DNA from: Sulfurospirillum oryzae
Lineage (GTDB): Bacteria; Campylobacterota; Campylobacteria; Campylobacterales; Sulfurospirillaceae
NCBI RefSeq assembly: GCF_025770725.1
Contig: NZ_JANZKZ010000002.1
Location: 620,001-684,000 of the forward strand
Reading direction: 5' to 3'
DNA length: 64,000 nt
A program made the position numbers and the translations under genes. Below, piece after piece: positions 27,713 through 42,682 of this stretch. The notes beneath the pieces were generated by a model that was given only the letters and a program-made list of their open reading frames with translations, searched no databases and was not told the DNA's origin. Within the stretch, counting starts at the first letter, position 1, and each line of letters opens with the position of its first letter.

Positions 27713-27744
27713 GTAAAGAGGTTTTACATGTAAAGCCTCTTTAC
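27713..27744. terminator. Hairpin with palindrome in the loop between convergent genes
   Basis: GTAAAGAGG pairs with CCTCTTTAC (9 bp); the loop is a TTTTACATGTAAAG palindrome that could itself pair. It overlaps the stop codon of the histidine phosphatase. T-runs are weak, so terminator function is likely but not strong. Confidence 0.6.
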
Positions 27745-28334
27745 AAAACTTTTCGATACCGCCACTGCATACTTTGTTGATCCCACGTTAATTCATTGAC
27801 ACACGCATAGGGTTGGATGATGCTAAACATATCATTGATCTCAACGCCAAAAAGATGCGATAAAATCATTCGGTTAACGCCTGCATGTGCCACAATAATA
27901 ATCGTACCCGTTGTACTATGAATGATTTCATCAAAAGCTCTTCTTGCGCGCACTGCCATATCATGAAAACTCTCGCCATTAGGTGGTGTAAAGTACTCCA
28001 AATTTTCGCCTCTTTGAGCATACAGTTTAGGATAGTTTAATTTGATATCAGACATCAAGACATTTTCCCAATCCCCCATATCAATCTCACACAATGCCTC
28101 AACAACTTGATACGTGATATCTTGATCATTGCACAAAACTTCAGCCGTTTGTAAACAACGCTTAAGAGGACTCGTAAAGATAGCGTTAAAGGGAATCGCT
28201 TTAAAATAATCGCGTAATGCTTCAGCTTGCTCCATTCCTAGCGCATCCAGTGGTACATCTGTTCGACCCAAATACCTTTTTTCGTTTCCATTATCAATGT
28301 ATCCATGACGAAGCAGATAGACTTTTTCAACCAT
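27741..28334 (-). CDS. Histidine phosphatase (phosphoglycerate mutase-like)
   Basis: The 197-residue protein has the phosphohistidine motif LLRHGYIDN near the start, TSPLKRCLQTAE, the catalytic Glu in EIDMGDWE and the second His in VAHAGVNRM, as in the CobC/broad-specificity branch. It is the last gene of the aldehyde-oxidoreductase run and overlaps the NTP-transferase/HD gene by 8 nt. In that context it may dephosphorylate a cofactor intermediate; this is inference. Confidence 0.85.
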   Translation of the reverse strand: MVEKVYLLRHGYIDNGNEKRYLGRTDVPLDALGMEQAEALRDYFKAIPFNAIFTSPLKRCLQTAEVLCNDQDITYQVVEALCEIDMGDWENVLMSDIKLNYPKLYAQRGENLEYFTPPNGESFHDMAVRARRAFDEIIHSTTGTIIIVAHAGVNRMILSHLFGVEINDMFSIIQPYACVNELTWDQQSMQWRYRKVL

Positions 28335-29433
28335 ACGGGAAATCCTTACATGTAATGTTATTTATCTTTGCAATAATCGCTTTTACAGCATTTAAACGTT
28401 TGGTAATGTTGCGCTGTGCTTCGAGATTTCCTTCGCATTTGTTAAATGCCTTTTCAAAACGCTTTTCATAACCGCACACCTCATCTTCACTGACCAGCTT
28501 GTCGGCTAAAAAAAGCAGTTCATTGGCGTTTAAAGGATCTTTCGCATCAACCTCAATATCCATGTGTGTTTCAATGATATGAGCGATATTCTCATAGCCC
28601 ATTTCACGAAGTTTTTGCGCACCAACAAATGCATGATTTCTCTCTTGTCGTGCAATGTCATGTAACAATGCCGCCGCACTTAAACTATTTTTATTGATAC
28701 AAAGGTTAAAAGAAGCAATGTAATCATAAAGACTCATTGCCATAGATTCTACTGCTTTACAATGCTTGATAATGTGCTCAGGCACCTCATCTTGGTGCAT
28801 GATCGCTAAACACTCCTCTTTGGTTGGCGCACCAAACGAGTCATACGCTTTTAGCGCTTTATAATCCTCGGGTGTATCCATATCCATTAAAACCGATTGT
28901 TCGCACACGTTTACATGTAAAGCATCATCTTTAAACGCTTCCAAAACACGTTTAAGCCCACCCTCACCACTGCTTGCAAGAATCAGCTCTTTATATTTCA
29001 TGTCGATCAATGGCGGATGCCCTTTTCGCCCCAAAAACGTCGGGTAAATCACCCCTTTGCCTTCACACGCATACGCCTCATACAAACGTTCAAGGCTCCC
29101 AACTTTTATGAGTGGGATGTCCACAGGTTGCATATAAAAGGCACTCAGCGTTTCATCGATGACACTCAGCCCTTTTTGAATAGAGCTAAACATACCTTTG
29201 TCATAATCCTCGTTATAAACAATAGAAACATCATCATCTTTTAAAGCTTCTCTTATCTCATCTTGCCTGTGCCCAACGACCACATAGATATGCGTTATCC
29301 CGTGCGCTTTATAGGTCTGAATCAGACGTTTTAGCGCACTGGTTTGACCCAATGGCAAAAGAGGTTTAAAGTCGTGCATTCGGGAAGAATACCCAGCAGC
29401 AATGATAAGAACGGCGATGTTGCTCTTTGTCAT
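28327..29433 (-). CDS. MobA-like NTP transferase fused to HD domain
   Basis: The 368-residue protein has an N-terminal nucleotidyltransferase (about 1-190) with LIIAAGYSSRMHDFKPLLPL, QPVDIPL and GRKGHPPLI. This resembles MocA/MobA-type enzymes that attach CMP or GMP to molybdopterin. The C-terminal part (about 200-368) is an HD phosphohydrolase-like domain with LLHDIARQ. Such transferases equip XdhC-dependent enzymes with molybdopterin cytosine dinucleotide, which D. gigas-type aldehyde oxidoreductase uses. From memory this matches the Desulfovibrio DVU_1551-type family. It starts 3 nt after the xdhC-like gene. Confidence 0.82.
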   Translation of the reverse strand: MTKSNIAVLIIAAGYSSRMHDFKPLLPLGQTSALKRLIQTYKAHGITHIYVVVGHRQDEIREALKDDDVSIVYNEDYDKGMFSSIQKGLSVIDETLSAFYMQPVDIPLIKVGSLERLYEAYACEGKGVIYPTFLGRKGHPPLIDMKYKELILASSGEGGLKRVLEAFKDDALHVNVCEQSVLMDMDTPEDYKALKAYDSFGAPTKEECLAIMHQDEVPEHIIKHCKAVESMAMSLYDYIASFNLCINKNSLSAAALLHDIARQERNHAFVGAQKLREMGYENIAHIIETHMDIEVDAKDPLNANELLFLADKLVSEDEVCGYEKRFEKAFNKCEGNLEAQRNITKRLNAVKAIIAKINNITCKDFPYG

Positions 29434-29436
29434 TTC

Positions 29437-30471
29437 CTAACTTCTTTTAACTCTGATAAGCTCCGCTACAATGCTAATAGCGATCTCTTCAGGCGTTTGA
29501 GCATTGATGGGAACCCCCACAGGACAGCACACCTCATCTAGCTTATTTTGAGCATATCCCTCTTGCAAGAGTTGGTTGTAAACATAATTTTTTTTAGTTT
29601 TACTCCCAATCATACCGATATATTTCGCCTTCGCATGAAGCGTTTGCTCTAAAACGATTTTGTCTACACCTCTGGTAACAATGACAATGTAGCTATTTTT
29701 AGCGATTCCCACATCTTTAATCAACCCTTCATACGAAGAGGGAACCACATGAATTTCATCCGCTGTAGGAAAGCGCTCTTTGTTAGCAAAAGCGTCCCTG
29801 TCGTCTAAAACAACTGTGTAGAAACCAAGTGGTTTCGTCAGTGCGGCAATTTGCTGAGAAATATGCCCTGCCCCTACAATATAAAGCCGATCGGTATTGT
29901 AAAAAGGCTCAATCATATACTTGCTTTTCCCAACAAAAAGATGAAATTTGACACGATAGAAATTTTCTCTAAGCGAATCCGCAATCTTTTGAACCTCTTT
30001 ATCTTCTTCACCAAACAGATCCGTTTCTGTGCATATCCATTTGTTTTTGCCAAAAGCACGTTTATTTGGCTGTGAAATATTCGTAATCATCACAAAATCA
30101 GCACCAGAGGCTTTAAGCTCTTTTGCTTTATGATAAACATTGAGTTGGTGAATATCCAAAGCATCAAGGTACTCTAAAAGAACACTCACTTCGCCACCAC
30201 ACACCATACCAGCCGCTCTTGCATCATCATCGGTGAGTTCAATATCTTCAATGGAACCCTGTTTTGTTTTAAATACCTCAGGCGCTAATTGAATCGCCAT
30301 CGCTTCGAGTGTGCCTCCGCCTATCGTTCCCTCAATTGATCCATTTTTGCGAATCATCATCTTAGCCCCAGCTTCTCTAGGCGCTGAACCACTTTTTTCT
30401 AAAATAGTTGCCGTAACCACTTCGTGTTGTTCATTTAAGCTCTCCACAATATGCTCAATGATGGTTTTCAT
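29437..30471 (-). CDS. XdhC/CoxI-family molybdenum hydroxylase maturation factor
   Basis: The 344-residue protein has an N-terminal XdhC_CoxI domain with EKSGSAPREAGAKM and GTIGGGTLEA, and a C-terminal Rossmann-like XdhC_C domain with IVGAGHISQQIAALT and CPVGVPINAQTPEEIAISI. XdhC proteins bind the molybdenum cofactor and insert it, with the terminal sulfido ligand, into xanthine dehydrogenase-type enzymes. The gene lies between the ligase and the NTP transferase, with only 3-nt gaps, so it probably matures Mop of the same operon. Confidence 0.9.
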   Translation of the reverse strand: MKTIIEHIVESLNEQHEVVTATILEKSGSAPREAGAKMMIRKNGSIEGTIGGGTLEAMAIQLAPEVFKTKQGSIEDIELTDDDARAAGMVCGGEVSVLLEYLDALDIHQLNVYHKAKELKASGADFVMITNISQPNKRAFGKNKWICTETDLFGEEDKEVQKIADSLRENFYRVKFHLFVGKSKYMIEPFYNTDRLYIVGAGHISQQIAALTKPLGFYTVVLDDRDAFANKERFPTADEIHVVPSSYEGLIKDVGIAKNSYIVIVTRGVDKIVLEQTLHAKAKYIGMIGSKTKKNYVYNQLLQEGYAQNKLDEVCCPVGVPINAQTPEEIAISIVAELIRVKRS

Positions 30472-30474
30472 CTA

Positions 30475-31773
30475 TTATCCTTTGTTTCTTTGGTTGTCTA
30501 TTTTTCTTTTGATCATGCTGTTAGTAATTTTGATTGAATGATCATCTTCTTCAATATCAAGGGTGAGATCAAATTCAAACGCAAAGTGCTCTTTTATGTT
30601 TTGAATGACCTCTTTCTTAAGTGCTTCGCTCTCCTCTTTGTTGGCAAGGATTAGCTTTACATGTAAAGCATGATTCTCACCCACGGTAAGTTTATAATCC
30701 AAGATGCGAGAAAAACGTAAAAGAATTTCATCTACCTCTCGTAAATGAATTTCGTGCCCATTGATGCTTACTTTGTTTTCAATGCGCCCAAGCACTTTCT
30801 CCATTCTGCGAAGAAACGTACCACAGGCACACGGTTGTGTTAAAAAGCGTGCCATATCGCCTGTTTTATAACGAATAAGAGGCATCGCTTGGCGATTAAA
30901 CGTTGTAAAAACAACCTCACCATACTCGCCCTCTCGCACAGGCTTCCCAGTGATGGGGTCTATAATTTCAAAGTACAGATGGTTCTCTCTTAAATGATAG
31001 CCATCAAGGCATTCACACTCAACGCCTCCACCATAGCCCATCTCGCTCATACCGTAGTGGTTAAAGACCTTGCACGCTCCTTGATGACTCAGTGACTCCA
31101 CAAGTGCCTCAGGCACATAATCAGTGCTTAAAAGCACTTTTTTGATCTGTTTATAAAAGAGTTCTGGCCTAACACGGCTTAGGTAAAGCACCTGCATAGG
31201 AATGCCCACAATGCAAGTAATGTTATTTTCCCCAATGCACTGTGCTGTTTTCTCAACGTCTTGTAAAACACCATGCACTATACACGCGATGTTTGAGCGA
31301 GAAAGTGCCTTTTTGAGCAAATCCCCGATGCTTCCATAAGAGGGACCTGGAAGCAGTACCATTACGTTGTCGCTTTCATCAACCAAACAGTTCATGCCAT
31401 ACTGAAAAAAATCAATCGTCGCTTCCAAATCCTCATGCGTGAAAAAGATGCGCTTTTCATCGCCTGTTGTGCCAGAGGTATTTAAAGTGACAATGCGCTC
31501 AACATCATGGCTTGGAACCGATAAAAAATCATGGGCGTTTCGTTTAATATCTTCCGGTGTTGTAAAAGGAAGAGTTTCAAAATCTTTCAGTGACGCAATA
31601 GCACTTAAATCAATATCACCGAGTTTTTCTTGATAAAATCGGCTTTTATTTTTTGCATAGGTCAAGGTTTTAATGAGTTCACCCAACTGATACGCTTTTA
31701 AAACCTCTTGGCTTTTATGCGCTAGCTGTGTGCGCTCAAGTATCCAATGCTCCAACGGTGTGACTTGCATCAT
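30475..31773 (-). CDS. AMP-forming ligase, phenylacetate-CoA ligase/F390 synthetase-like
   Basis: The 432-residue adenylate-forming enzyme is shorter than typical acyl-CoA synthetases. Motifs: TLNTSGTTGDEKRIFFT (P-loop-like), NHYGMSEMGYGGGVEC, YKTGDMARF and a C-terminal ligase subdomain with KITNSMIKRK. It overlaps the radical SAM gene by 4 nt. A similar ligase sits in Desulfovibrio mop neighbourhoods (DVU_1553-type, from memory). Its acid substrate is unknown; it may build a small molecule used in enzyme maturation or activate the carboxylate product of Mop. Confidence 0.83.
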   Translation of the reverse strand: MMQVTPLEHWILERTQLAHKSQEVLKAYQLGELIKTLTYAKNKSRFYQEKLGDIDLSAIASLKDFETLPFTTPEDIKRNAHDFLSVPSHDVERIVTLNTSGTTGDEKRIFFTHEDLEATIDFFQYGMNCLVDESDNVMVLLPGPSYGSIGDLLKKALSRSNIACIVHGVLQDVEKTAQCIGENNITCIVGIPMQVLYLSRVRPELFYKQIKKVLLSTDYVPEALVESLSHQGACKVFNHYGMSEMGYGGGVECECLDGYHLRENHLYFEIIDPITGKPVREGEYGEVVFTTFNRQAMPLIRYKTGDMARFLTQPCACGTFLRRMEKVLGRIENKVSINGHEIHLREVDEILLRFSRILDYKLTVGENHALHVKLILANKEESEALKKEVIQNIKEHFAFEFDLTLDIEEDDHSIKITNSMIKRKIDNQRNKG

Positions 31774-33107
31774 TTCCTCTTTGTGTCTCGATAAAGAGAC
31801 TCTCCATTCATATTGGTCATGTTATACATGCAAAAAGGGATAAGCTTTCCATCAAGAGTAGAGACATGAATACAACAATCTCGAATGCGTTCCAAATTCA
31901 CATTCCAAGCATCTTGAAACGCCATACCAGAGAGGCTAAAAGCGTTGTTTTGAATGGAGCTTAGGATTTTGTCCCAATCTGAGAGTTTCTCTTCTTGGAC
32001 TTGTTTTTGATACGACCAATTACGTGCCACAAACGCTTTAGCCTTGGTCGCTCCTACTTCTGCTTTTTCACTTTCACTGGAACAACAAGAGCGTTTGCTA
32101 ATAGGCTTTAAAACACCCTCTTCTATCAGATAATTACCATTAAACGAACAGAGCGCATTTTCACATCCTGGGGGTTGCATACTTTGCATACTGACCATCT
32201 GATGGGTTTGTTCGCAAATGCACTCCATCACTTCAGGCAGCGTAATGCGATCTTCATCTTTTGGCGCTTCGGGAATACGTCCAAAATAGCTTACCGGTTG
32301 AAAATGCACACCTCTAATCGCAGGAGACCTGCTTATGCCAAAACGTATGATCTCACCAATACTATCCACATTGATATGGGGTACGATGGTAGGAACAAGC
32401 ACAACGCCAATGCCGTGTTTTCGGCAATTTTCAATCGCTTGGCATTTAACATCAAAGAGAGCCTTTCCACGCAGTTTTTCATAAATCGCATCATTAATGC
32501 CATCAAATTGTAAAAAGATAGAGTTAAGCCCCGCTTCTTTGAGGGCTTTTACGTACGCTTCATCTTTTGCCATTCGGATGCCATTGGTATTGACCTGAAT
32601 AAAAGGAAAACCAAGTTCAACGCCTATACGAATAATCTCTGAAAGATCGTCTCTCACTGTTGGCTCTCCACCTGAGAGTTGGATGTTGCATTTACCTGAG
32701 ACCTTTAAAATGTTCTCAAACTGAAAACGCAACTGCTCTAGCGAGGGATCGATACTTTTAGCATCCAGTGCATCCGCAAAACAGAAACGACAGTTAAGGT
32801 TACAACGAGATGTCACCTCAATGAGCGCCGTGCAGGTATGTTGTCTGTGCGCACTGCAAAGCCCACAATCATACGGGCACCCATGTTCGACTGGCGTAAT
32901 GGGATTTTTGATGTAGGCTCTCTCTTTGATGCGAATCCACTCACGCATCGGTGTTGCACCTCGCCATAACACCGTTTCAAACGTTCCATGTTCTAAACAT
33001 GTTTTGAGCATGAACGCACCATCCTTTTCTTCGACAATAAAAGCCTCAAGCTTATTCAAACAGATAGGGCAAAGGCTTTCAGTGTGCATCAAAGGATCAA
33101 ACGTCAT
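31770..33107 (-). CDS. Radical SAM protein of the aldehyde oxidoreductase cluster
   Basis: The 445-residue protein has an N-terminal zinc-ribbon-like region (CPIC near residue 18), a CPYDCGLC motif, then the SAM-cluster motif SRCNLNCRFCFA and GGEPTVRDDL. This arrangement resembles the MJ0619/tetraether-synthase-like group that acts on lipids or cofactors. The C-terminus has RSCCSSESEK, a Cys pair where some relatives may carry selenocysteine (memory, uncertain). No in-frame UGA is used here. It sits between the C_GCAxxG_C_C and ligase genes. The reaction is unknown. Confidence 0.83.
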   Translation of the reverse strand: MTFDPLMHTESLCPICLNKLEAFIVEEKDGAFMLKTCLEHGTFETVLWRGATPMREWIRIKERAYIKNPITPVEHGCPYDCGLCSAHRQHTCTALIEVTSRCNLNCRFCFADALDAKSIDPSLEQLRFQFENILKVSGKCNIQLSGGEPTVRDDLSEIIRIGVELGFPFIQVNTNGIRMAKDEAYVKALKEAGLNSIFLQFDGINDAIYEKLRGKALFDVKCQAIENCRKHGIGVVLVPTIVPHINVDSIGEIIRFGISRSPAIRGVHFQPVSYFGRIPEAPKDEDRITLPEVMECICEQTHQMVSMQSMQPPGCENALCSFNGNYLIEEGVLKPISKRSCCSSESEKAEVGATKAKAFVARNWSYQKQVQEEKLSDWDKILSSIQNNAFSLSGMAFQDAWNVNLERIRDCCIHVSTLDGKLIPFCMYNMTNMNGESLYRDTKRK

Positions 33108-33112
33108 TGCAT

Positions 33113-33559
33113 CTACTCTCTAGTGCCGTACTCGTAACCATGCTCTATCAAAATCTCACAGACTTTGATGTATGCTTTTTGAATCATACCTGCACAGATA
33201 GTTTTATAACTGAAATCAGCTCCCGAAAAATCCCTTTCTCCAATGAGTGTAACACATTTGGTTGAGCCAAATTCCGTTTTAAACCACTCGTGCAATTCTC
33301 TTACCATCCGTTGAAAATCGTCATTTGCATCTTCAGTTTCGTTTCCTTTTGCACCATAAAGCCCTAAAACACCAATGCCCCCCGTAAGCACACCGCAAGT
33401 TTTTTGTGTGTCGGCAATGCCCCTGCAAAGGCCTTGCGCGGAGCGTACCAAGTCATCATTGTGAGACCCTTCATCTTCAAGAGCGAGTTTATACATCATC
33501 TGCGCACAGCAAAAGCCCGCTGATGAGAATTTAAATAAACGTAGTGATAAATCATCCAT
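33113..33559 (-). CDS. C_GCAxxG_C_C-family redox protein
   Basis: The 148-residue protein has cysteines in the family pattern: AGFCCAQMMYK near the start, LCRGIADTQKTCGVLTGGIG, and later single cysteines (TKCVTLIG, KTICAGM). The family often sits next to redox enzymes and is thought to bind a cluster or cofactor. ATG 33559 overlaps the stop of the methyltransferase gene (TAATG) and follows AGGAGAAAAG; the frame upstream to 33607 is not needed. Precise role unknown; part of the mop maturation set by context. Confidence 0.85.
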   Translation of the reverse strand: MDDLSLRLFKFSSAGFCCAQMMYKLALEDEGSHNDDLVRSAQGLCRGIADTQKTCGVLTGGIGVLGLYGAKGNETEDANDDFQRMVRELHEWFKTEFGSTKCVTLIGERDFSGADFSYKTICAGMIQKAYIKVCEILIEHGYEYGTRE

Positions 33560-34284
33560 TACTTTTCTCCTTTTTTCCCGATTAAGATAAAATAACCAGG
33601 TTTGCATTGTTTGATATTTTGTTCAAAAAAACAGCATGTTTGGGGTGCTTCGCCTTCAATGGTTTTATTCCAAAAAGTTCCCATAGACCCGTGTGAAAAA
33701 ATGATTTTGACCATGAGTTCTTTGAGTAAAGAAGAACAATCCTCCAAAAGCATAATTTCAAAGCCAATCTTTTCTAACATCTCTTTTAAAGAAAGTAGAT
33801 CATGCATTCCACGCATACACGAAGTGATGGAAAAATTATCCAGTTGGCTTATGGTTTCAGGATTTTTCGCATAAACATCGTTGATCACAAACCAGCCGCC
33901 TTTCTCTAAAACTCTAAACACCTCTTTTAGCGTTACATGTAAATCATTCATAAGCGACAACGTACACTCTGCTAAAACACACTCAAAACTTTCATTTTCA
34001 AAAGGAAGAGAATCACCTGAGCCTGAAATGAAAGTCGCAAAAGGGTTTTTTGCTTTTGCAACTGCAAGCAATTTTTCAGAAGGATCAATGCCAACAACTT
34101 TTATCCCATGATTTTTGTAAAGATACGAAGCAGTAGCCCCCATACCACACCCCAAATCAAGGATTCGGTCTTGTTTACGTAAAGCACAAAAGTCAACTGC
34201 TTTATCAGTGAGTTTAAATCCTCCTGGACGCAAGGTTTCACCTGTGGCTTCTTGCATACAGCTACTTTCATAAACGTTTATCAC
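33559..34284 (-). CDS. SAM-dependent class I methyltransferase of the mop cluster
   Basis: The 241-residue protein has a Rossmann methyltransferase core: motif I LDLGCGMGATASYL, motif II VVGIDPSEKLL, motif III-IV LPFENESFECVLAECTLSLM and FRVLEKGGWFVIND. The GTG start at 34284 is chosen because GGAGGA lies 7-12 nt before it and the upstream gene ends 1 nt away; longer in-frame starts overlap that gene. The C-terminal tail has QTCCFFEQN with two cysteines. From memory it resembles the DVU_1556 type. Its methyl acceptor is unknown. Confidence 0.83.
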   Translation of the reverse strand: MINVYESSCMQEATGETLRPGGFKLTDKAVDFCALRKQDRILDLGCGMGATASYLYKNHGIKVVGIDPSEKLLAVAKAKNPFATFISGSGDSLPFENESFECVLAECTLSLMNDLHVTLKEVFRVLEKGGWFVINDVYAKNPETISQLDNFSITSCMRGMHDLLSLKEMLEKIGFEIMLLEDCSSLLKELMVKIIFSHGSMGTFWNKTIEGEAPQTCCFFEQNIKQCKPGYFILIGKKGEK

Positions 34285-34285
34285 G

Positions 34286-34492
34286 CTACTTGTCCTCCAG
34301 CCCTTTTTCGACTTCAAGTATTTTTCCCAAAGCCAAATCTTCACTAATAAAAACCATATTACAAGTTGGGCATTTTAAAAGATCAACTTCAAAATTGCCA
34401 TCAAGATAGCGGACTTTTACCTTTTTTGAAACCAATGCTTGATGGCATTTGTCACACATCCATGGGGTTGTTGTATCGATTTTATTTTCCAT
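34286..34492 (-). CDS. Small CxxC zinc-ribbon/redox protein of the mop cluster
   Basis: The 68-residue protein has two CxxC pairs (CDKC near residue 13 and CPTC near 44), giving a rubredoxin-like or zinc-ribbon core flanked by short helices. ATG 34492 follows the stop of the upstream flavin/iron-sulfur gene by 1 nt. Similar to the DVU_1557-type small protein in Desulfovibrio (memory). It could bind Zn2+ or iron and act as electron or cofactor carrier; no direct evidence. Confidence 0.78.
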   Translation of the reverse strand: MENKIDTTTPWMCDKCHQALVSKKVKVRYLDGNFEVDLLKCPTCNMVFISEDLALGKILEVEKGLEDK

Positions 34493-34493
34493 G

Positions 34494-36863
34494 TTAGGAC
34501 TCCACCACTTCCATTCTATGGCTGTAAACATCTTTAATCGAGATGTTATTGCCCTCTTCTTCGTACTCCACCCAAAATGTCACATTTTGAATTCTCAGAC
34601 GTGCAAGATAACTTGATGTTTGAGGGTTGAAAAATCGCTCTTTGTGTGTAATAGAATGATCCACTACTTTTTCAATATCACTCAGCAAAATAAATCGCTT
34701 TTCCATGAGTGCAACTATTTCGTCTGCAAGATGTAGTGTAAAATCATAAGCCTTACTCATAGGACACACCTCCTCCTCTTCGTTCCATATTTCTTTAAGA
34801 AGCTCTTTTTTAACTCGCTTTCGATTGTTTTGTCGATCTGAGAGTGTTGGCATTTTTTGTGGGGCATCTTGGTTAACTTCATTGCCATAAATGATGTCCA
34901 AAATGTGATACGCTTTTTTGTTGCCTTTGACGATAGCAGCTTTACACATCGCACAATAGACAAGAACATCTTGTTCACTCTCACTGATTCGATCTTTTAC
35001 AAAATCTTCTGCTTGCTCAGGATTGGCATTTGAGACTAAACCACCGTAACCACAACATTTTGCTTTTTCTTTGGAGTATTCAAGCTCTTGAATGGTGTAG
35101 CCTAAGGTTTTCACGATGCTTCGTACACTATCATGAATCCCTGCATTGTGCCTAGTCGCACACGCATCATGAATGCAAAGTTCTCGCTTCCCTTTTTTAA
35201 TATCAACCTCAGGTAAACCGTATTTGTCAAACACTTCCCATAAGGAGATGGTTTTGATCATCGGCAGATACTTTTCAAACGTTGCCGCACAACTTGAACA
35301 GGCTAAGATAAATGTTGGCTCACCCATCTCTTCCCATGTTTTGTGTATTTTTTGGATACTTTCAGGCATCAGATCAAGCCTTCCCGCCCAATCAGCAGGT
35401 GCCCCACAACAACCCAAATAAAGACCAACATCATTGTCAGCATCTTTGTCTTTAATCACGCCCACCAAATGCTTATAAATATTACCAATATAATCCGTAT
35501 GCGTTGAGCTCAGTTGACACCCTGGGTAAAAGAGATAACCCGTTTTTCCTGATCCCTTATACAATCCTCTCGCATACGCTGAAAAGGCGATGACAGGATA
35601 ATAAAAAAGATCTTTGGATTGTTCTTTACTCGGTTGTTTACGAACCATCGAGAAGTAATCACTATGGCTAAACTGCATATCTTTGAGTGCAAAATCATGT
35701 GCCGAGAGTGGCATTTTTCCTTTTTCAACCATACTTTCCCTTGTGAGATGAATGATCTCCTTCATGCCAATATCAACAGGGCAAACAACTTGACACAAAC
35801 CACACTGTGTGCATGAGTTAATCATTTTATTGGCATGGTGAGTTCCTAAAATAATGCGTTCATTTTGATTAATCGTTCGAATATAACTATCAGGTGTGAT
35901 GTTGAAACGTTGCAGGTGGACACACGCGTTTATACATTCATTGCATTGGCATTTGAGGCATCGTTTTGCCTCTTGTGTTGCTTCATTTTCCCCATAAACA
36001 TCCGCGCTTTTTACAATCGTTTCAAGGGGTTGTACTTTATCAATTTTAAAATCTAATTTTGTTTTAAAAACTCCCTCACGTTCTCGTGATGCCAACATAG
36101 ATGTTTTTGTAATGTAGCGATCAATCGAGACGGCAGAGCGTTTGCCAGAACTTACGAAATCAATAATACCGCCGCTGTTATTTTGAATTTTGCCTCCAAT
36201 AAATAAAGAGGATTCATTCGCTTGAAATGTATGGGGGTTAATCTCATATACTTTGTCCCAAACACCCGTACCTAAATAAACAGCATCGTATTTTTCACTA
36301 TAATTTTTTAGATCTTCTTGTGACACTTCAGTATTAAAATAAACCAAAATGCCTTTTTTTTCAATCACGGAGAGTTCTTCTTCAATAACACTGGTCTCTA
36401 AACCTTTGCCTTCATAATCCCAAAGGCTTCCGCCTATTCGGTTGGATTTTTCATAAATCGTGACTTGATAGCCTTTTTTATCCAATTCAACGGCGACAAC
36501 AATACCACTTAATCCTCCACCAACAACGGCAACCGTGCCTTTTTGTTTTGGTAAAGAGAGTGATTTTTTAGGTAGCACATAGCCTAAATCAATAACGGTT
36601 TTTTCAAGTTCGCTGATGCGTATACTTCCACCGATCTCTTTTCGAATACACTGCGTTTCGCAAGGGTGGTTACAAATTTTTCCAATAAGTCTGCTAAAAG
36701 GAATTCTGTTTTCCATGATTTTGTAAGCTTTGGCAAAATCACCTTTTTCAATTTCAGACACAAATGCAATCACATCCAAATGAACAGGACACGATGCTAC
36801 ACATATCGGAGGTTCTGAATGAATACATTGATTGCCAATTTCCAGTAATTTATCTAAATCCAT
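34494..36863 (-). CDS. Multidomain flavin/iron-sulfur/CCG electron-transfer protein
   Basis: The 789-residue protein appears to combine several electron-transfer modules. Order: an N-terminal GltD-like [4Fe-4S] domain (about 10-80, CVASCPVHLD, CNHPCETQC), an FAD/NAD Rossmann domain (VAVVGGGLSG near 111), a dicluster ferredoxin (CLKCQCNECINAC and CTQCGLCQVVCPVD), and two HdrD/GlpC-type CCG domains (LGCCGAPADW; CCGYGGLVS). A C-terminal region of about 100 residues is unrecognised. It is directly downstream of mop, so it likely passes electrons from aldehyde oxidation to NAD+, thiols or quinone. Similar genes adjoin mop in Desulfovibrio (memory). Confidence 0.85.
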   Translation of the reverse strand: MDLDKLLEIGNQCIHSEPPICVASCPVHLDVIAFVSEIEKGDFAKAYKIMENRIPFSRLIGKICNHPCETQCIRKEIGGSIRISELEKTVIDLGYVLPKKSLSLPKQKGTVAVVGGGLSGIVVAVELDKKGYQVTIYEKSNRIGGSLWDYEGKGLETSVIEEELSVIEKKGILVYFNTEVSQEDLKNYSEKYDAVYLGTGVWDKVYEINPHTFQANESSLFIGGKIQNNSGGIIDFVSSGKRSAVSIDRYITKTSMLASREREGVFKTKLDFKIDKVQPLETIVKSADVYGENEATQEAKRCLKCQCNECINACVHLQRFNITPDSYIRTINQNERIILGTHHANKMINSCTQCGLCQVVCPVDIGMKEIIHLTRESMVEKGKMPLSAHDFALKDMQFSHSDYFSMVRKQPSKEQSKDLFYYPVIAFSAYARGLYKGSGKTGYLFYPGCQLSSTHTDYIGNIYKHLVGVIKDKDADNDVGLYLGCCGAPADWAGRLDLMPESIQKIHKTWEEMGEPTFILACSSCAATFEKYLPMIKTISLWEVFDKYGLPEVDIKKGKRELCIHDACATRHNAGIHDSVRSIVKTLGYTIQELEYSKEKAKCCGYGGLVSNANPEQAEDFVKDRISESEQDVLVYCAMCKAAIVKGNKKAYHILDIIYGNEVNQDAPQKMPTLSDRQNNRKRVKKELLKEIWNEEEEVCPMSKAYDFTLHLADEIVALMEKRFILLSDIEKVVDHSITHKERFFNPQTSSYLARLRIQNVTFWVEYEEEGNNISIKDVYSHRMEVVES

Positions 36864-36946
36864 TCTTGTCTCTCCTCTTTTTCTAGCATTAAAGTTACAT
36901 GATGAGCGAGATACAAAAGTATCTCACCCATCATTACAGCTGAAAA

Positions 36947-39670
36947 CTATTTTTTCAAAGCTGCTAAAACTTTCTCTGGACGTGCTGGCAAGTGAGTAAC
37001 TCTTGCACCACACGCATTGTAAATCGCGTTAATAATCGCTGCGTGAGGAGCCGCAAGAGGCATTTCACCCGCACCAGAAGCACCGTAGAAGTTGTTTGCT
37101 CTTGGTGTTTCGGTATAGATAAGATTCAAGCTATCAGGAACATCTTTGATTTTTGGAATACCACAACCAGTAAGTGTTGTATGTTTTTTGAGATCATCAA
37201 AGTCTTCACTAAGTGCTAGACCAATACCTTGAGTCAAACCACCGTACATTTGACCATCAGCGGCTAGTTTATTGATGATAGTACCGATGTCTGAAGCGAG
37301 TGTCATTTTCTCAACTTGTGTTTTACCCGTTGTGACATCAACCTCAACTTCTGCTACACAAACGCCGTACATGTAACCCGCAAATGGATTTCCTTGTCCG
37401 CCTGTTGGAGGTGTGTCAGTACATGGTGCTGTCCATTTACCCATGTATTTAACTTCACGACCTTCAGCAACCATCTCAGCATAAGTTCTGTATGTACCAT
37501 CTGCTTTTTTCAAACCTTCAAGTAAGTTACGGCACGCAACTGTGATCGCATTACCTGTTACAAGGTTTTGACGGCTACCGCCTGATGGTCCACTGTTTGG
37601 TGTTTTAGTCATATCGTTCATGACTAGATCAATTTGATCAACAGTAAGATTGAGTGGTCTTAGTGTTTCGTGTGCATAAGTCAATGTACCGATATCTGCA
37701 CCTTGTCCATGATCTTCCCATGATGTACCAACAGCTACACCTTTTGGTGTAATTTCTGCCCATGCTTCAGATGTGTCTGGACCATCCAAACCACAACCAT
37801 AAATATTAACAGAAACGCCAACACCGTATTTTTTGACTCCATCACTAGCTGCATTTTTTGCAGCAGCTGTTTTTTTAGCAAGCTCATAAACTGGACGTGA
37901 TTTATCAAACAATCCTTCCAAACAGTATGCATCTGGAGCACAACCTGTTGGTGTTGTTGCACCTGGTCTATAAATATTTTTATATCTGAATTCAAATGGA
38001 TCAAACCCTGCTTTAACCGCTAATTCATCAATAAGTACTTCGGATGGGAACATGATCTCAGGAGCACCGTATCCACGGAATGCTGAACCCCAACCATGGT
38101 TTGTACAAACAGTGCGTCCGTTACCACGGATATTAGCAATATTATAACCAGCACCACCAAATTGGAAGCCACGTTGAGTTAACAAGTCACCAAATTCTGA
38201 GTAAGGACCATGGTCAACGCTCCAATCAGACTCTAATGCCAAGAGTTTACCCTCTTTATCAGCAGCCATTTTCATGGTTGTCCAGAATGGTGAACGTTTA
38301 CCTGTATAAGTGATTTGTTGGAACATATTAAATTCAAGATAAACTGGTCTTCCAGTAGCCAATGTTGCAACACCTAAGAGTGCTTCAATCGTTGGACTAA
38401 ATTTATAACCAAATGTCGCACCGATATTGTTTTGAACAATAAAGACATCTTCAGCTTTCATGCCAAGACCTTCTGCAATCATCAATGAGTGGAAGTGAAG
38501 TGCAATACTCTTAGAGTGAATAATCAACTTGCCTTCATCATTAACATACGCAAAACCAACATCTGGCTCAAGAGGTAAGTGTGGTTGTCTTTGTACATAG
38601 AAGTTGTCTTCAACAACATGTGGAGCACTTTTCATAATAGAAGATGTTTCGCCACCTTTTGCGATATAGTTTGTAAAGTAAACGTTAGGAGTGCCCGGAT
38701 GAATTTCAATCGCATCGTCTGCCATCGCATCTGGTGCATTCATATAAGCTGGTAATTCTTCCAATACCACTTTAACTTTGTCCACACCCGCATGAGCCGC
38801 TTTTTCATTGTCCGCTAAAACGATAGCAATCGCATCACCAAATTGGAAGATTTTTTTGTCATTTAAGATTGGTCTGTCAAGTCCATCACCTTTGTTAGAA
38901 GGGAATGCCAAACCGTTAATGCGGTTTGTTCCTTTTACATCTTTATACGTAAGAACAGCTACAACACCTGGAACTTTTTTAGCTTCTTCAGTGTCGATTG
39001 AGATGATATTAGCATGAGAAACTTTTGCTTGAACAAGTTTTGCATGAAGCGTAGTTGAAGGAAGTTTCAATCCTAAATCAGCACCGAAATCCCATGTTCC
39101 CATAACTTTTGCCATTGCAGATGGACGAATGAGTGATGAACCGATTAAAGAAGCACCCTCTGGGATTTTTTTCCAGAAATCTTTAACAGTCATTTCACCT
39201 CTAACAAGTTTTGCAGCATCCATAACCGCATCAACGAGAGGTTTGTATCCTGTACAACGACACAAGTTTTTATTTTTTTGGAACCAGTCTCTGACTTCTT
39301 CACGGGTTGGATTGTCATTTTGCTCAAGAAGTGCTTTAGCTGAAACGATGAAACCTGGAGTACAGAAACCGCATTGTGCGCCACCATGTACCATCCATGC
39401 AATTTGAAGTGGGTGAAGCTTGTCTTTAGTACCTACACCTTCAATGGTGATGATTTCATCATTATCTTCAACTTTTTTCATCTTAGTAATACAAGCTCTA
39501 ACGAGTTTGTTGTTAAGAATAACGGTACACGTACCACATTCTCCGCTACCACAACCTACTTTTGTTCCTGTAAGTCCGAGCTGTTTTCGTAATACATCAG
39601 ATAATTTTTCTTCTGCATCTGCAACCAAAGTTGTTTTGGCACCATTGATAATTATTGTTCTTTTTAACAT
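36947..39670 (-). CDS. mop: Molybdenum aldehyde oxidoreductase Mop (single-chain, no FAD)
   Basis: Oxidises aldehydes to carboxylic acids. The 907 residues equal the D. gigas enzyme length. First [2Fe-2S] motif GCGSGECGTC (about 39-48), second GAQCGFCTPG (about 97) with NLCRCTGY, then Moco domains without an FAD domain. GSAFRGYGAPE and the catalytic GASGAGEMPL are present; the Glu of the latter is at residue 869, the same number as in D. gigas Mop. Highly regular codon choice suggests strong expression. Start ATG follows GAGGTAACA. First gene of a 10-gene operon; the divergent kinase/regulator pair likely controls it. Confidence 0.94.
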   Translation of the reverse strand: MLKRTIIINGAKTTLVADAEEKLSDVLRKQLGLTGTKVGCGSGECGTCTVILNNKLVRACITKMKKVEDNDEIITIEGVGTKDKLHPLQIAWMVHGGAQCGFCTPGFIVSAKALLEQNDNPTREEVRDWFQKNKNLCRCTGYKPLVDAVMDAAKLVRGEMTVKDFWKKIPEGASLIGSSLIRPSAMAKVMGTWDFGADLGLKLPSTTLHAKLVQAKVSHANIISIDTEEAKKVPGVVAVLTYKDVKGTNRINGLAFPSNKGDGLDRPILNDKKIFQFGDAIAIVLADNEKAAHAGVDKVKVVLEELPAYMNAPDAMADDAIEIHPGTPNVYFTNYIAKGGETSSIMKSAPHVVEDNFYVQRQPHLPLEPDVGFAYVNDEGKLIIHSKSIALHFHSLMIAEGLGMKAEDVFIVQNNIGATFGYKFSPTIEALLGVATLATGRPVYLEFNMFQQITYTGKRSPFWTTMKMAADKEGKLLALESDWSVDHGPYSEFGDLLTQRGFQFGGAGYNIANIRGNGRTVCTNHGWGSAFRGYGAPEIMFPSEVLIDELAVKAGFDPFEFRYKNIYRPGATTPTGCAPDAYCLEGLFDKSRPVYELAKKTAAAKNAASDGVKKYGVGVSVNIYGCGLDGPDTSEAWAEITPKGVAVGTSWEDHGQGADIGTLTYAHETLRPLNLTVDQIDLVMNDMTKTPNSGPSGGSRQNLVTGNAITVACRNLLEGLKKADGTYRTYAEMVAEGREVKYMGKWTAPCTDTPPTGGQGNPFAGYMYGVCVAEVEVDVTTGKTQVEKMTLASDIGTIINKLAADGQMYGGLTQGIGLALSEDFDDLKKHTTLTGCGIPKIKDVPDSLNLIYTETPRANNFYGASGAGEMPLAAPHAAIINAIYNACGARVTHLPARPEKVLAALKK

Positions 39671-40127: not shown

Positions 40128-42017
40128 TTGAAAACATACAATTTTTGTTATGAAACAGGATCACTACCGAGTATTATAAATTTTACGCTATTTGAACATG
40201 AAAAAAATATTTTAGTACAGATATTTTGTGGTCAAGGGAAAGAAGTATTAAAGTACGTTAGTGACGTCATCCTCAGCCATATTCCTCACGCCATTTGTCT
40301 AGGAACTACAACCGATGGAGAAATATTCGGTGAGCGCATTACAACATTGCAAACCATTATTTCCATTAGTATTTTTGAACACACTTTCATCAAAACAGCC
40401 TATATCCAAGACGAAGATTCGTTTCAATGCGGCATGCAGTTGGCATCTGATTTGATTACTCCCAATACAAAGTTGCTCATTCTTTTTTCAGATGGTACCC
40501 GTATGAATGCAGAAGAGTTTTTAAAAGGTGTTGAGTCTTATGATCCGACAATACCTATTTGTGGCGGTATGGCAGGAGATAATGGAAAATTTGAGCAAAC
40601 CTATATTTCTTCACAGAACACTATTTTAAGTGAAGGGGTCGTTGGTGTCTCTTTAAATTCTGATATTCTTCGCGTTGCTACGGATTATAAATTTGACTGG
40701 AAACCTATAGGATTAGAGCATACGATTACAAAAGTCCAAGATAATAAAGTTTACTTGATAGACAATATAAAAGCTGCCGAGTTTTACGATAAATACCTCG
40801 GCAGCAATTTCTCACAAACAGAATTTCCCTTAATCCTTGAAAAAAATGGCATCATTATGGCAAGAGCTGTCATTGGAAAACATGAAGATGGAAGTCTAAG
40901 TTACAGTGGCAATTTCAAAGAAGGTGATAAAGTCAGAATTGGCTTTGGCGATGCCGAGTCTTTAATGAAAGATCCCATAGAAGTCTTAGAAAACTTGCAT
41001 TCTATTGATGTAGAAACATTTTTTATCTTCTCTTGTATGGCACGCAGAAGGTTTATGCCATTTTTAATCAAACTGGGTATTGGGTCATTTTCAAAAACAG
41101 CCGCAACTTCAGGATTTTTCACCTATTCAGAATTCTATCATCAAAATGGACACAATAAACTCCTCAATCAAACACTCACGGTTGTTGCGTTAAGTGAATC
41201 GGGAAAGAGTGTCCCTGCTTTAAGAAGCACAAATAAAGAGGAAAGTAAAAAAGACACCTCTTATTCTAAAACGATTGAATCATTGACTCACTTAATTGAA
41301 CAAAGTGCAAGGGATTATGATGAGCAGTCTAAACGCTTAGAGCAACAGATGAATTATTCAAAAAACCTTTTGGAATCTCATAGGCAATTTTTACGCTACA
41401 CGGTTCACGAGATGAACACTCCTTTAAGTGTCATTATGAGCAATATAGAACTGCATGAGATGGAATTTGGAAAAAGTGTTTATTTGGAAAATATTGAAGT
41501 TGGCATTAAAAGTATTTTTTCGATGTACGATGATTTGAGTTATTTGGTTAAAAAAGACCATATTCACTATTTGAAACAAAAGATTGATTTAGTCGATTAT
41601 GTTCGTAGTCGCATCGATTTTTTTGCTCAAGTTGCCGATAAAGCAAAATCCATGTTTCTCTTTGAAACGAATCACAATAAGATTTATATCTCCTTTAATG
41701 AGACAAAATTGCAACGCATCATCGACAACAACCTCACCAATGCTATCAAATATACATTTGAGAATGAAAAGATTATTGTTTCTTTACATAAAGAGAACGA
41801 TAACTGCCATTTTTGTGTAGCATCTCATTCACGAAAAATTCAAAAACCTGAAAAAATATTTGAAGAATTCTACCGTGAAGAGAAAGCACAAGATGGCTTT
41901 GGGCTGGGGCTCAATCTCGTTAAAAGAATTTGTAAGGAAGAAAACGTGAAAATTACACTGCATTCAGATGAGACAATCACATCCTTTTCGTATCAATTCA
42001 AGGTTGACAACGCATGA
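40128..42017 (+). CDS. FIST-domain sensor histidine kinase
   Basis: The 629-residue soluble kinase has FIST_N (about 25-215; GTTTDGEIFGE, CGGMAGDNGKF), FIST_C (about 220-355; FSCMARRRFM), a coiled coil (375-420), HisKA with phospho-His427 in TVHEMNTPLSV, and HATPase (NNLTNAIKYTF, GFGLGLNLV). FIST domains are small-ligand sensors, often predicted to bind amino acids. TTG start at 40128 has GGAGGA 9 nt upstream. Overlaps its regulator gene by 4 nt. No membrane segments, so it senses a cytosolic signal; divergence from mop suggests aldehyde or a related compound, which is inference. Confidence 0.88.
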   Translation: MKTYNFCYETGSLPSIINFTLFEHEKNILVQIFCGQGKEVLKYVSDVILSHIPHAICLGTTTDGEIFGERITTLQTIISISIFEHTFIKTAYIQDEDSFQCGMQLASDLITPNTKLLILFSDGTRMNAEEFLKGVESYDPTIPICGGMAGDNGKFEQTYISSQNTILSEGVVGVSLNSDILRVATDYKFDWKPIGLEHTITKVQDNKVYLIDNIKAAEFYDKYLGSNFSQTEFPLILEKNGIIMARAVIGKHEDGSLSYSGNFKEGDKVRIGFGDAESLMKDPIEVLENLHSIDVETFFIFSCMARRRFMPFLIKLGIGSFSKTAATSGFFTYSEFYHQNGHNKLLNQTLTVVALSESGKSVPALRSTNKEESKKDTSYSKTIESLTHLIEQSARDYDEQSKRLEQQMNYSKNLLESHRQFLRYTVHEMNTPLSVIMSNIELHEMEFGKSVYLENIEVGIKSIFSMYDDLSYLVKKDHIHYLKQKIDLVDYVRSRIDFFAQVADKAKSMFLFETNHNKIYISFNETKLQRIIDNNLTNAIKYTFENEKIIVSLHKENDNCHFCVASHSRKIQKPEKIFEEFYREEKAQDGFGLGLNLVKRICKEENVKITLHSDETITSFSYQFKVDNA

Positions 42018-42682
42018 AAATTTTACTCTTAGAAGATGATATACTGCTTAACGAATCGATCACAAAGTACCTCACGACCGTTGGTCATGCCATAACTTCT
42101 GCCAGGGACGGTAATGTGTGCTTAGAAATCTTAGAGAAAGAAAAATTTGACTTGCTCGTTTTTGACATTAATGTGCCCAACATTAATGGCTTGAGCATTT
42201 TGGAGACATTGCACGCGCAAAAAAAGATCATACCTATTATTTTTATCTCTGCTCTTATTGACATCGAAGATATATCAAGAGCTTTTGAACTTGGATGCTA
42301 TGATTATTTGAAAAAACCTTTTCATTTAAAAGAGCTCAACCTGAGAATCGATAGAATTTCAAAAACCGCTAAAAAAGAGATGCATCACAAAGTCCTCTCT
42401 GCCTCTTACAGTTTCAATAATGAAAATATGACGCTTTACTTTCATGATGAGCCCCAGGTTTTATCCAAACGACAACTTCAAATTATCCAATTTCTGGCAC
42501 ACAATCGAGGATTTGTCTGTAGCTACGATATGTTCAGAGAAAGTGTATGGAGTGATTTCGATATGGATGTTGACGAAGCAACCATACGAACAGAAGTCAA
42601 TCGCCTAAAAAATCATTTGAAAGAAGATTTCATCGTCAATATTAGAGGTAGTGGCTATATGATTAAAGTTCCTTCATTGTAA
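42014..42682 (+). CDS. OmpR-family response regulator paired with the FIST kinase
   Basis: The 222-residue protein has a receiver domain (1-118) with acidic pair EDD (7-9), phospho-acceptor Asp51 in LVFDINVPN and the Lys in KKPFH. Its winged-helix DNA-binding domain (about 130-220) has DVDEATIRTEVNRLKNHL and the terminal GSGYMIK. Translationally coupled to the kinase (ATGA). Likely binds the inverted repeats before mop; a CTTTACATGTAAAG palindrome follows its stop codon. Confidence 0.93.
   Translation: MKILLLEDDILLNESITKYLTTVGHAITSARDGNVCLEILEKEKFDLLVFDINVPNINGLSILETLHAQKKIIPIIFISALIDIEDISRAFELGCYDYLKKPFHLKELNLRIDRISKTAKKEMHHKVLSASYSFNNENMTLYFHDEPQVLSKRQLQIIQFLAHNRGFVCSYDMFRESVWSDFDMDVDEATIRTEVNRLKNHLKEDFIVNIRGSGYMIKVPSL

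Follow-up and report, generated by a model that had tools for sequence, protein, structure and literature searches.

The aldehyde oxidoreductase of Desulfovibrio gigas (Mop), the first mononuclear molybdenum enzyme with a reported crystal structure, holds, as the passages of PMC3877041 on this enzyme describe it, an ordinary pyranopterin cytidine dinucleotide with two dithiolene sulfurs at the molybdenum and an equatorial oxo group in place of the sulfido ligand of xanthine oxidase. The same passages state that anomalous maps show no further sulfur at the molybdenum, that enzyme from dissolved crystals is kinetically the same as the as-isolated form, that substrate specificity is broad, and that batches of the enzyme differ in activity, some of them requiring reductive activation. 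A second described protein that bears on the present locus is the archaeal tetraether lipid synthase Tes (GDGT-MAS, MJ0619), a radical S-adenosylmethionine (SAM) enzyme of lipid coupling in which a C-S intermediate on an auxiliary cluster precedes C-C coupling (PMC9433317). Here we analyzed a 64,000-nucleotide stretch of the Sulfurospirillum oryzae genome (contig NZ_JANZKZ010000002.1, positions 620,001 to 684,000; henceforth the window), in which mop stands at the head of a ten-gene operon that also encodes TrsS, a Tes-like radical SAM protein. We argue, with about even confidence, that the nine partner genes form a conserved functional unit for Mop and that a small organic factor acts beside Mop or transiently, and not as a lasting ligand of its molybdenum.

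The minus strand of the window carries the ten open reading frames (ORFs) in tandem between 27741 and 39670, and with trimmed starts the gaps between them, read from the PHO end to mop, are -8, 3, 3, -4, 5, -1, 28, 1 and 83 nt, the last being that between mop and DIC; because of this close spacing we read them as one operon. In transcription order, with scores in bits against the NCBIfam cut-off where a model applies (MCD, molybdopterin cytosine dinucleotide; FAD, flavin adenine dinucleotide), they are:

mop, 36947..39670, minus strand: MCD-dependent aldehyde oxidoreductase of the xanthine-oxidase family, 907 aa, with two [2Fe-2S] clusters and without the FAD domain (NF045668, 1587.8 vs 1100, residues 3-906; Pfam Fer2, Fer2_2, Ald_Xan_dh_C, MoCoBD_1/2)
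DIC, 34494..36863, minus strand: 789-aa protein with FAD, a 4Fe-4S dicluster and two CCG (HdrB-type) motifs (NF045663, 994 vs 530)
RDX, 34286..34492, minus strand: small CxxC...CxxC protein, DVU_1557, DUF7479 (NF045645, 96.7 vs 60)
MT, 33559..34257, minus strand: class I SAM-dependent methyltransferase, DVU_1556 (NF045667, 252 vs 155)
CGCA, 33113..33559, minus strand: C-GCAxxG-C-C family protein, DVU_1555 (NF045669, 153 vs 103; PF09719)
TRS, 31770..33107, minus strand: radical SAM protein TrsS, Tes-like (NF045646, 668.6 vs 490; PF23545 N-terminal ribbon)
LIG, 30475..31773, minus strand: PaaK-like adenylate-forming enzyme, DVU_1553 (NF045666, 462 vs 300)
XDHC, 29437..30471, minus strand: XdhC-family aldehyde oxidoreductase maturation factor (NF045664, 411 vs 350)
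NTP, 28327..29433, minus strand: MocA-like NTP transferase fused to an HD domain, DVU_1551 (NF045665, 432 vs 315; PF12804 and PF01966)
PHO, 27741..28334, minus strand: histidine phosphatase, alpha-ribazole-phosphatase-like (PF00300; TIGR03162, 162.2 vs 162.9)

Nine of the ten products passed the curated cut-offs and PHO fell short by 0.7 bit. The listed start codons of MT, CGCA and RDX are probably too far upstream: RDX probably starts at 34492, though its ORF is open to 34531, CGCA at 33559, though open to 33607, and MT near 34257, though open to 34344, the NF045667 match starting at residue 36 of the long MT ORF. In the source genome (2.63 Mb, 11 contigs) the Mop of the window is the sole MoCoBD_1 match.

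To place the operon among its relatives we scanned genome contigs with a Mop alignment and obtained 80 loci, which span Campylobacterota, Clostridia, Desulfobacterota, Chloroflexi, Coriobacteriales and one Bacteroidales metagenome-assembled genome, those nearest to the window Mop being mostly from Sulfurospirillum. Across these loci (numbered L, and their genomes G, where one must be singled out) the gene order of the window was repeated with few changes, and all nine partners were present in 42 of the 60 loci that have at least 9.5 kb beyond mop. The linkage of Mop with TrsS was nearly perfect in three lineages. In the family of the window's genome 23 genomes had both, 21 had neither and none had only one; among 247 genomes from the family of a Desulfovibrio sp. 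both were found in 163, Mop only in 7, TrsS only in 6 and neither in 71 (Fisher p 4e-46); and among 391 genomes from the class of Clostridium homopropionicum the corresponding numbers were 15, 1, 0 and 375 (Fisher p 4e-26), these p-values being indicative only as they ignore shared ancestry. Most of the Mop-only genomes trace to contig ends. Among the six TrsS-only genomes two have a Mop fragment at a contig end, in two the kit begins from DIC near a contig end and in one TrsS itself lies at a contig end, so that G063 alone looks real. When eight Mop loci without a local TrsS were searched genome-wide, seven genomes had a TrsS over the cut-off elsewhere and G050 had one just under it (472 vs 490 bits); no such match was obtained in four other, fragmentary genomes (G055, G057, G058 and G059). 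The sequence-only reading of the window had proposed a ten-gene aldehyde oxidoreductase operon of DVU_155x families, phosphatase included, as a conserved kit linked to mop, with a search for co-occurrence as its check. All of this stood up: the NCBIfam matches confirm the families, the set and its order are fixed, and PHO is the last kit gene at most loci. The text of that reading had omitted DIC, which adjoins mop at nearly every locus. Two records labelled Lachnoclostridium and Lacrimispora (L017 and L059) encode a Mop 85-86% identical to that of the window, which suggests transfer of the operon between phyla.

Judging from genomes in which the genes are split or duplicated, the kit has three parts: XDHC, NTP and PHO as a module for MCD, DIC and RDX as a pair for electron transfer, and MT, CGCA, TRS and LIG as what we call the chemistry module. 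In Desulforhabdus the Mop locus reads MOP-DIC-RDX-XDHC-NTP-PHO (L056), while LIG-TRS-CGCA-MT lie elsewhere in the same genome (L096/L184), accompanied by a second RDX and a DIC remnant, and in L065 MT-CGCA-TRS-LIG are likewise separated from MOP-DIC-RDX. We had considered RDX as a member of the TrsS module and rejected this, since in split genomes it stays with DIC. Clostridium ljungdahlii (L024) carries a tandem duplication with two MOP-DIC-RDX-XDHC sets, the first MOP being cut by the locus end, together with single copies of TRS, MT, LIG, NTP and PHO and a second CGCA that is broken; single copies serving two Mop sets are as expected of enzymes acting in trans, as against partners retained with each Mop. 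The portion of PMC5640608 on these tandem sets notes Mop, the FAD/CCG protein, the four-Cys protein and the C_GCAxxG protein, with no discussion there of TrsS, LIG, MT or the maturation genes in connection with them. At 7322-9079 of L138 the NTP/HD protein and the histidine phosphatase are fused into one protein of 585 aa, and genes for a molybdate ABC transporter lie next to it; this arrangement connects the phosphatase with the chemistry of the molybdenum cofactor. In G492 the full kit, DIC included, lies together about 25 kb from a Mop-XDHC pair, and in several genomes second Mop copies stand alone.

Among solved structures the nearest to TrsS is Tes (E 4e-89), with which it aligns in two blocks, one of the N-terminal 300 residues and the other of 50 residues close to the end, and its AlphaFold model (pLDDT 88) matched 7TOL/7TOM with a TM-score of 0.80-0.82, far above the next match. 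When the profile-aligned segments were set against the numbering of the Tes paper, C13/C16/C37/H40 fell on the rubredoxin site, C77/C81/C84/H87 on the N-terminal cluster and C102/C106/C109, in a CX3CX2C radical SAM motif, on the SAM cluster, while F110/R213/Q270/S273/R277 corresponded to the contacts around 5'-deoxyadenosine and M395, C411, C412 and C426 stood opposite Met439 (the labile ligand), C455, C456 and C470. All these residues are invariant in a 49-row alignment except F110 and R213, which are nearly so, and S273, which is neither. Within the coverage of the alignment the Tes ligand residues thus have one-to-one counterparts, and TrsS is predicted to have sites for three [4Fe-4S] clusters and a rubredoxin-type iron. 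On the other hand, TrsS scored below the cut-off of the Tes model NF045702 (376.1 vs 450 bits), its C-terminal region is shorter, with 68 residues between the two aligned blocks as against 114 in the Tes chain, it has an extra invariant C92, and at the position of Tyr459, which the Tes paper gives as fully conserved among archaeal Tes, it has a nearly invariant Val415. Its operon context, too, is a molybdenum hydroxylase and not lipids. Judged by motifs and predicted fold, TrsS is a structural sister of Tes that constitutes a separate family. Given the C-S intermediate of Tes, this kinship makes it most likely, by analogy, that activation of an unactivated C-H by TrsS leads to a C-C or C-S bond. 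An older annotation of MJ0619 as a pterin methylase, which would have hinted at methylation of MCD, was rejected, as later work was unable to confirm it and shows lipid coupling (PMC9433317), and it should not be taken as ground for a pterin substrate of TrsS. A selenoprotein form of TrsS was likewise set aside, because the sole in-frame TGA (in G465) lies beyond the last conserved residues and is uninformative.

The anatomy of DIC suggests a redox partner for Mop, which lacks the FAD domain of xanthine oxidase. In profile alignment DIC residues 18-205 and 204-368 match residues 101-291 and 451-629 of the Nfn/GltD-type chain 9bov_A and skip residues 292-450, its NAD(P)H-binding domain, so that the FAD domain is kept and the NAD(P)H domain is missing; the inserted domain expected of an NAD(P)H-dependent GltD/Nfn-type oxidoreductase was not found in this alignment. 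The two CCG motifs (C449/485/486/522/525 and C568/603/604/637/640) are invariant, and the AlphaFold model (pLDDT 88) has EtfD among its best fold matches. We therefore see in DIC a good candidate for the flavin partner that Mop is missing, and, as judged from its domains, likely the electron-transfer partner of this flavin-less enzyme; the relevant part of PMC5640608 suggests a membrane electron carrier for the CCG pair of C. ljungdahlii. The neighboring RDX ends in ...LEDK-COOH, which is almost invariant across phyla in its orthologues of L014-L101 and L162-L181; EDK makes up the last three residues in 72 of 74 orthologues. A further 26 RDX ORFs ended in EDK (23) or EEK (3); among them are divergent kits, one locus that appears twice and another counted before. 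The other kit proteins have no conserved end, at most 16 of 75 sharing the last three residues. This signature may be a docking tail or a modified C-terminus.

NTP is a probable MCD synthase by family, and XDHC has an invariant C91-G-G, whose Cys probably corresponds to that of Rhodobacter capsulatus XdhC discussed for sulfuration (PMC2997495). It is odd that XDHC keeps this Cys though the crystallized D. gigas member works without a sulfido ligand. The conserved Cys and the MocA-like domain are as in the XdhC/MocA-type maturation described in PMC2997495, whereas here NTP has an HD domain and a phosphatase partner; moreover, the xdh, pao and puc operons described there have no TrsS, LIG, MT or CGCA. 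In the chemistry module, CGCA has four invariant residues (C34, C71, C118 and C138), and LIG, whose nearest solved structure is the phenylacetate-CoA ligase 4R1L, conserves the PaaK-type adenylation motifs TSGTTG, HYGMSE and TGD. The C-terminal lid, which a PaaK-type enzyme needs for its CoA half-reaction, is present in the LIG of the window (432 aa) and absent in orthologues of 350-379 aa (L066, L083, L089, L090 and L092), which retain the adenylation motifs.

The sequence-only reading had further supposed that the kit builds or attaches an unrecognised ligand or a modified cofactor of Mop. The Mop of the window is 63% identical to 1DGJ of Desulfovibrio desulfuricans and 61% to 1SIJ of D. gigas over the full length, shares with them the lack of the FAD domain, and scored below the cut-off of the selenium-dependent xanthine dehydrogenase model TIGR03311 (448.9 vs 830.45 bits); it is a cytoplasmic, flavin-less enzyme which we infer to bind MCD and oxidize aldehydes. 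In genome G077 we found a protein whose sequence matches that of 1SIJ/1VLB at 100% identity, by which we take the species to be D. gigas, and the mop of this genome is followed, in the same order and within about 11 kb, by DIC, RDX, MT, CGCA, TRS, LIG, XDHC and PHO, an NTP match not being found within the 34 kb examined. The crystallized enzyme thus comes from the same operon type, with its own TrsS, and yet holds ordinary MCD and an oxo ligand, which makes a permanent extra ligand on the molybdenum unlikely; the supposition of the earlier reading was accordingly not sustained. Its companion point, that the radical SAM, ligase and methyltransferase branch is foreign to ordinary xanthine dehydrogenase maturation, did hold, and to our knowledge TrsS, LIG, MT and CGCA are not members of xdh, pao or puc operons.

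A modified cofactor may still be argued for, with the TrsS branch making or attaching an unrecognised ligand or modifying MCD or the Mop polypeptide, the change perhaps being labile and lost in aerobic purification. The near-perfect co-occurrence of TrsS and Mop, the presence of XDHC, NTP and PHO within the same operon, the single-copy kit enzymes for two C. ljungdahlii Mops, which fit catalytic maturation, and the variable batch activity of the D. gigas enzyme would all agree with it, but the ordinary MCD and oxo group, the lack of extra anomalous sulfur and the unchanged kinetics of dissolved crystals speak against it, and we regard it as possible but unlikely and do not favour it. If instead Mop were one step of a biosynthetic or catabolic pathway, it would oxidize an aldehyde, LIG would activate the resulting acid, and MT and TrsS would convert it further. 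An aldehyde turned into its acid and then into the acyl-adenylate makes a natural series, the nearest enzymes to LIG are phenylacetate-CoA ligases, and the missing lid of some orthologues is compatible with adenylate chemistry without CoA. The broad specificity of Mop, the good detection of DVU_1559 in the proteome, the one TrsS/LIG/MT set common to two Mops and the solitary second Mop copies fit such a pathway poorly, which leaves it rather doubtful.

Two further explanations would loosen the tie between TrsS and Mop altogether. Bacterial Tes homologues in general have been proposed as tetraether- or diabolic-acid-type lipid synthases (PMC8941075), and with its sequence and fold close to Tes TrsS might be one of them, its mop neighborhood being incidental or about fatty aldehydes; however, TrsS tracks Mop in three lineages, and the score below the Tes cut-off, the 68-residue spacing and the exchange of Tyr459 for Val415 set it apart, so that we hold this to be very unlikely. 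Still more improbable, in our estimate, is that TrsS and Mop occur together because an anaerobe island was transferred horizontally as a linked whole, with the two functionally untied. The close identity of the L017 and L059 Mops to that of the window would suit such transfer, but the co-occurrence holds where TrsS is unlinked from Mop, and the two are absent jointly.

We therefore return to a conserved functional unit for Mop, with a small organic factor acting beside it or transiently. From their families, NTP would make MCD, XDHC would insert it and PHO would serve the same nucleotide chemistry. DIC and RDX, by domain anatomy and linkage, would draw electrons from both [2Fe-2S] clusters of Mop and hand them on, replacing the missing FAD domain. 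In the chemistry module, if TrsS works as a sister of Tes, LIG would adenylate a carboxylic acid, MT would methylate, TrsS would abstract a hydrogen from an unactivated carbon to make a C-C or C-S bond, and CGCA would be a thiol or redox helper, the product being a small organic factor. Such a factor would more likely be a redox carrier or cofactor on the DIC-RDX side, or transient in maturation, and our guess is that either accounts for the data better than a modified cofactor. The more specific proposal is that MT-CGCA-TRS-LIG uses Tes-type radical formation of a C-C or C-S bond either to make an organic redox cofactor not described so far or to alter RDX at its C-terminal tail, the factor carrying the electrons of Mop; it is tentative and we would not wager on it.

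Several observations weigh against this picture. Mop and TrsS are not absolutely tied, as G063 has TrsS and LIG without Mop, and in G114 (L158), which may be a true Mop-only case, two divergent genes for Mop-like proteins (43% identical) occur together with XDHC and NTP but with no kit nearby and no TrsS match. Furthermore, TrsS paralogues have other neighbors: in L136 TrsS and an MbdU-like protein lie beside a selenium-dependent xanthine dehydrogenase, YqeB, YgeW and a dihydropyrimidinase/hydantoinase, in L142 (9233-11760) the second TrsS of Clostridium ragsdalei adjoins a CobW-type GTPase, and in L146 (14231-19349), from G063, there are two TrsS, LIG and an HgdB/double-cubane-like protein. 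TrsS chemistry thus extends beyond Mop, whereas for the Mop kit TrsS seems to be required. Divergent TrsS copies were also found beside Mop-like enzymes of 42-44% identity (L137 and L143). We know of no product, substrate or phenotype of the kit. In addition, the acceptor proposed for the D. gigas enzyme in the relevant section of PMC10223205 is flavodoxin and not DIC.

Divergent from the operon lies one further gene of possible relevance:

FIST-domain sensor histidine kinase and response regulator, 40128..42682, plus strand: FIST, FIST_C, HisKA and HATPase_c domains

This kinase is found beside the mop operon, at either end, in ten Sulfurospirillum-type loci, and it possibly regulates the operon. 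The tRNA and Rfam scans of the window and a PHROGs search with the C-GCAxxG protein returned nothing, and a promoter scan gave no more sites than shuffled sequences. Our literature searches found no report on a Sulfurospirillum Mop, and for DVU_1551-1559 and TrsS only mentions in proteome and selenoproteome tables; the portions consulted of the papers on the D. gigas and D. desulfuricans enzymes make no mention of the operon or of its TrsS branch. By analogy only, the genomic pattern resembles that of mycofactocin, whose radical SAM genes track, across genomes, oxidoreductases that need a special electron acceptor (PMC3023750), although the radical SAM family is a different one and no precursor peptide is shown for the Mop kit.

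Taken together, the genes around this known enzyme have NCBIfam annotations, but as a set they are functionally uncharacterised. The natural electron acceptor of D. gigas Mop has only been proposed, and the genomes show beside it a dedicated FAD/Fe-S/CCG protein and a Tes-related radical SAM branch. If the branch does make a cofactor, anaerobes would have a cofactor pathway that is new; otherwise an explanation must still be found for the strict linkage. The genes of some bacterial Tes homologues may be parts of molybdoenzyme operons, which calls for caution in using these homologues as markers of membrane-spanning lipids. Should the chemistry module indeed yield a factor that carries electrons from Mop, decades of work on the textbook D. 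gigas enzyme would have been done in the absence of its natural electron-transfer partner.

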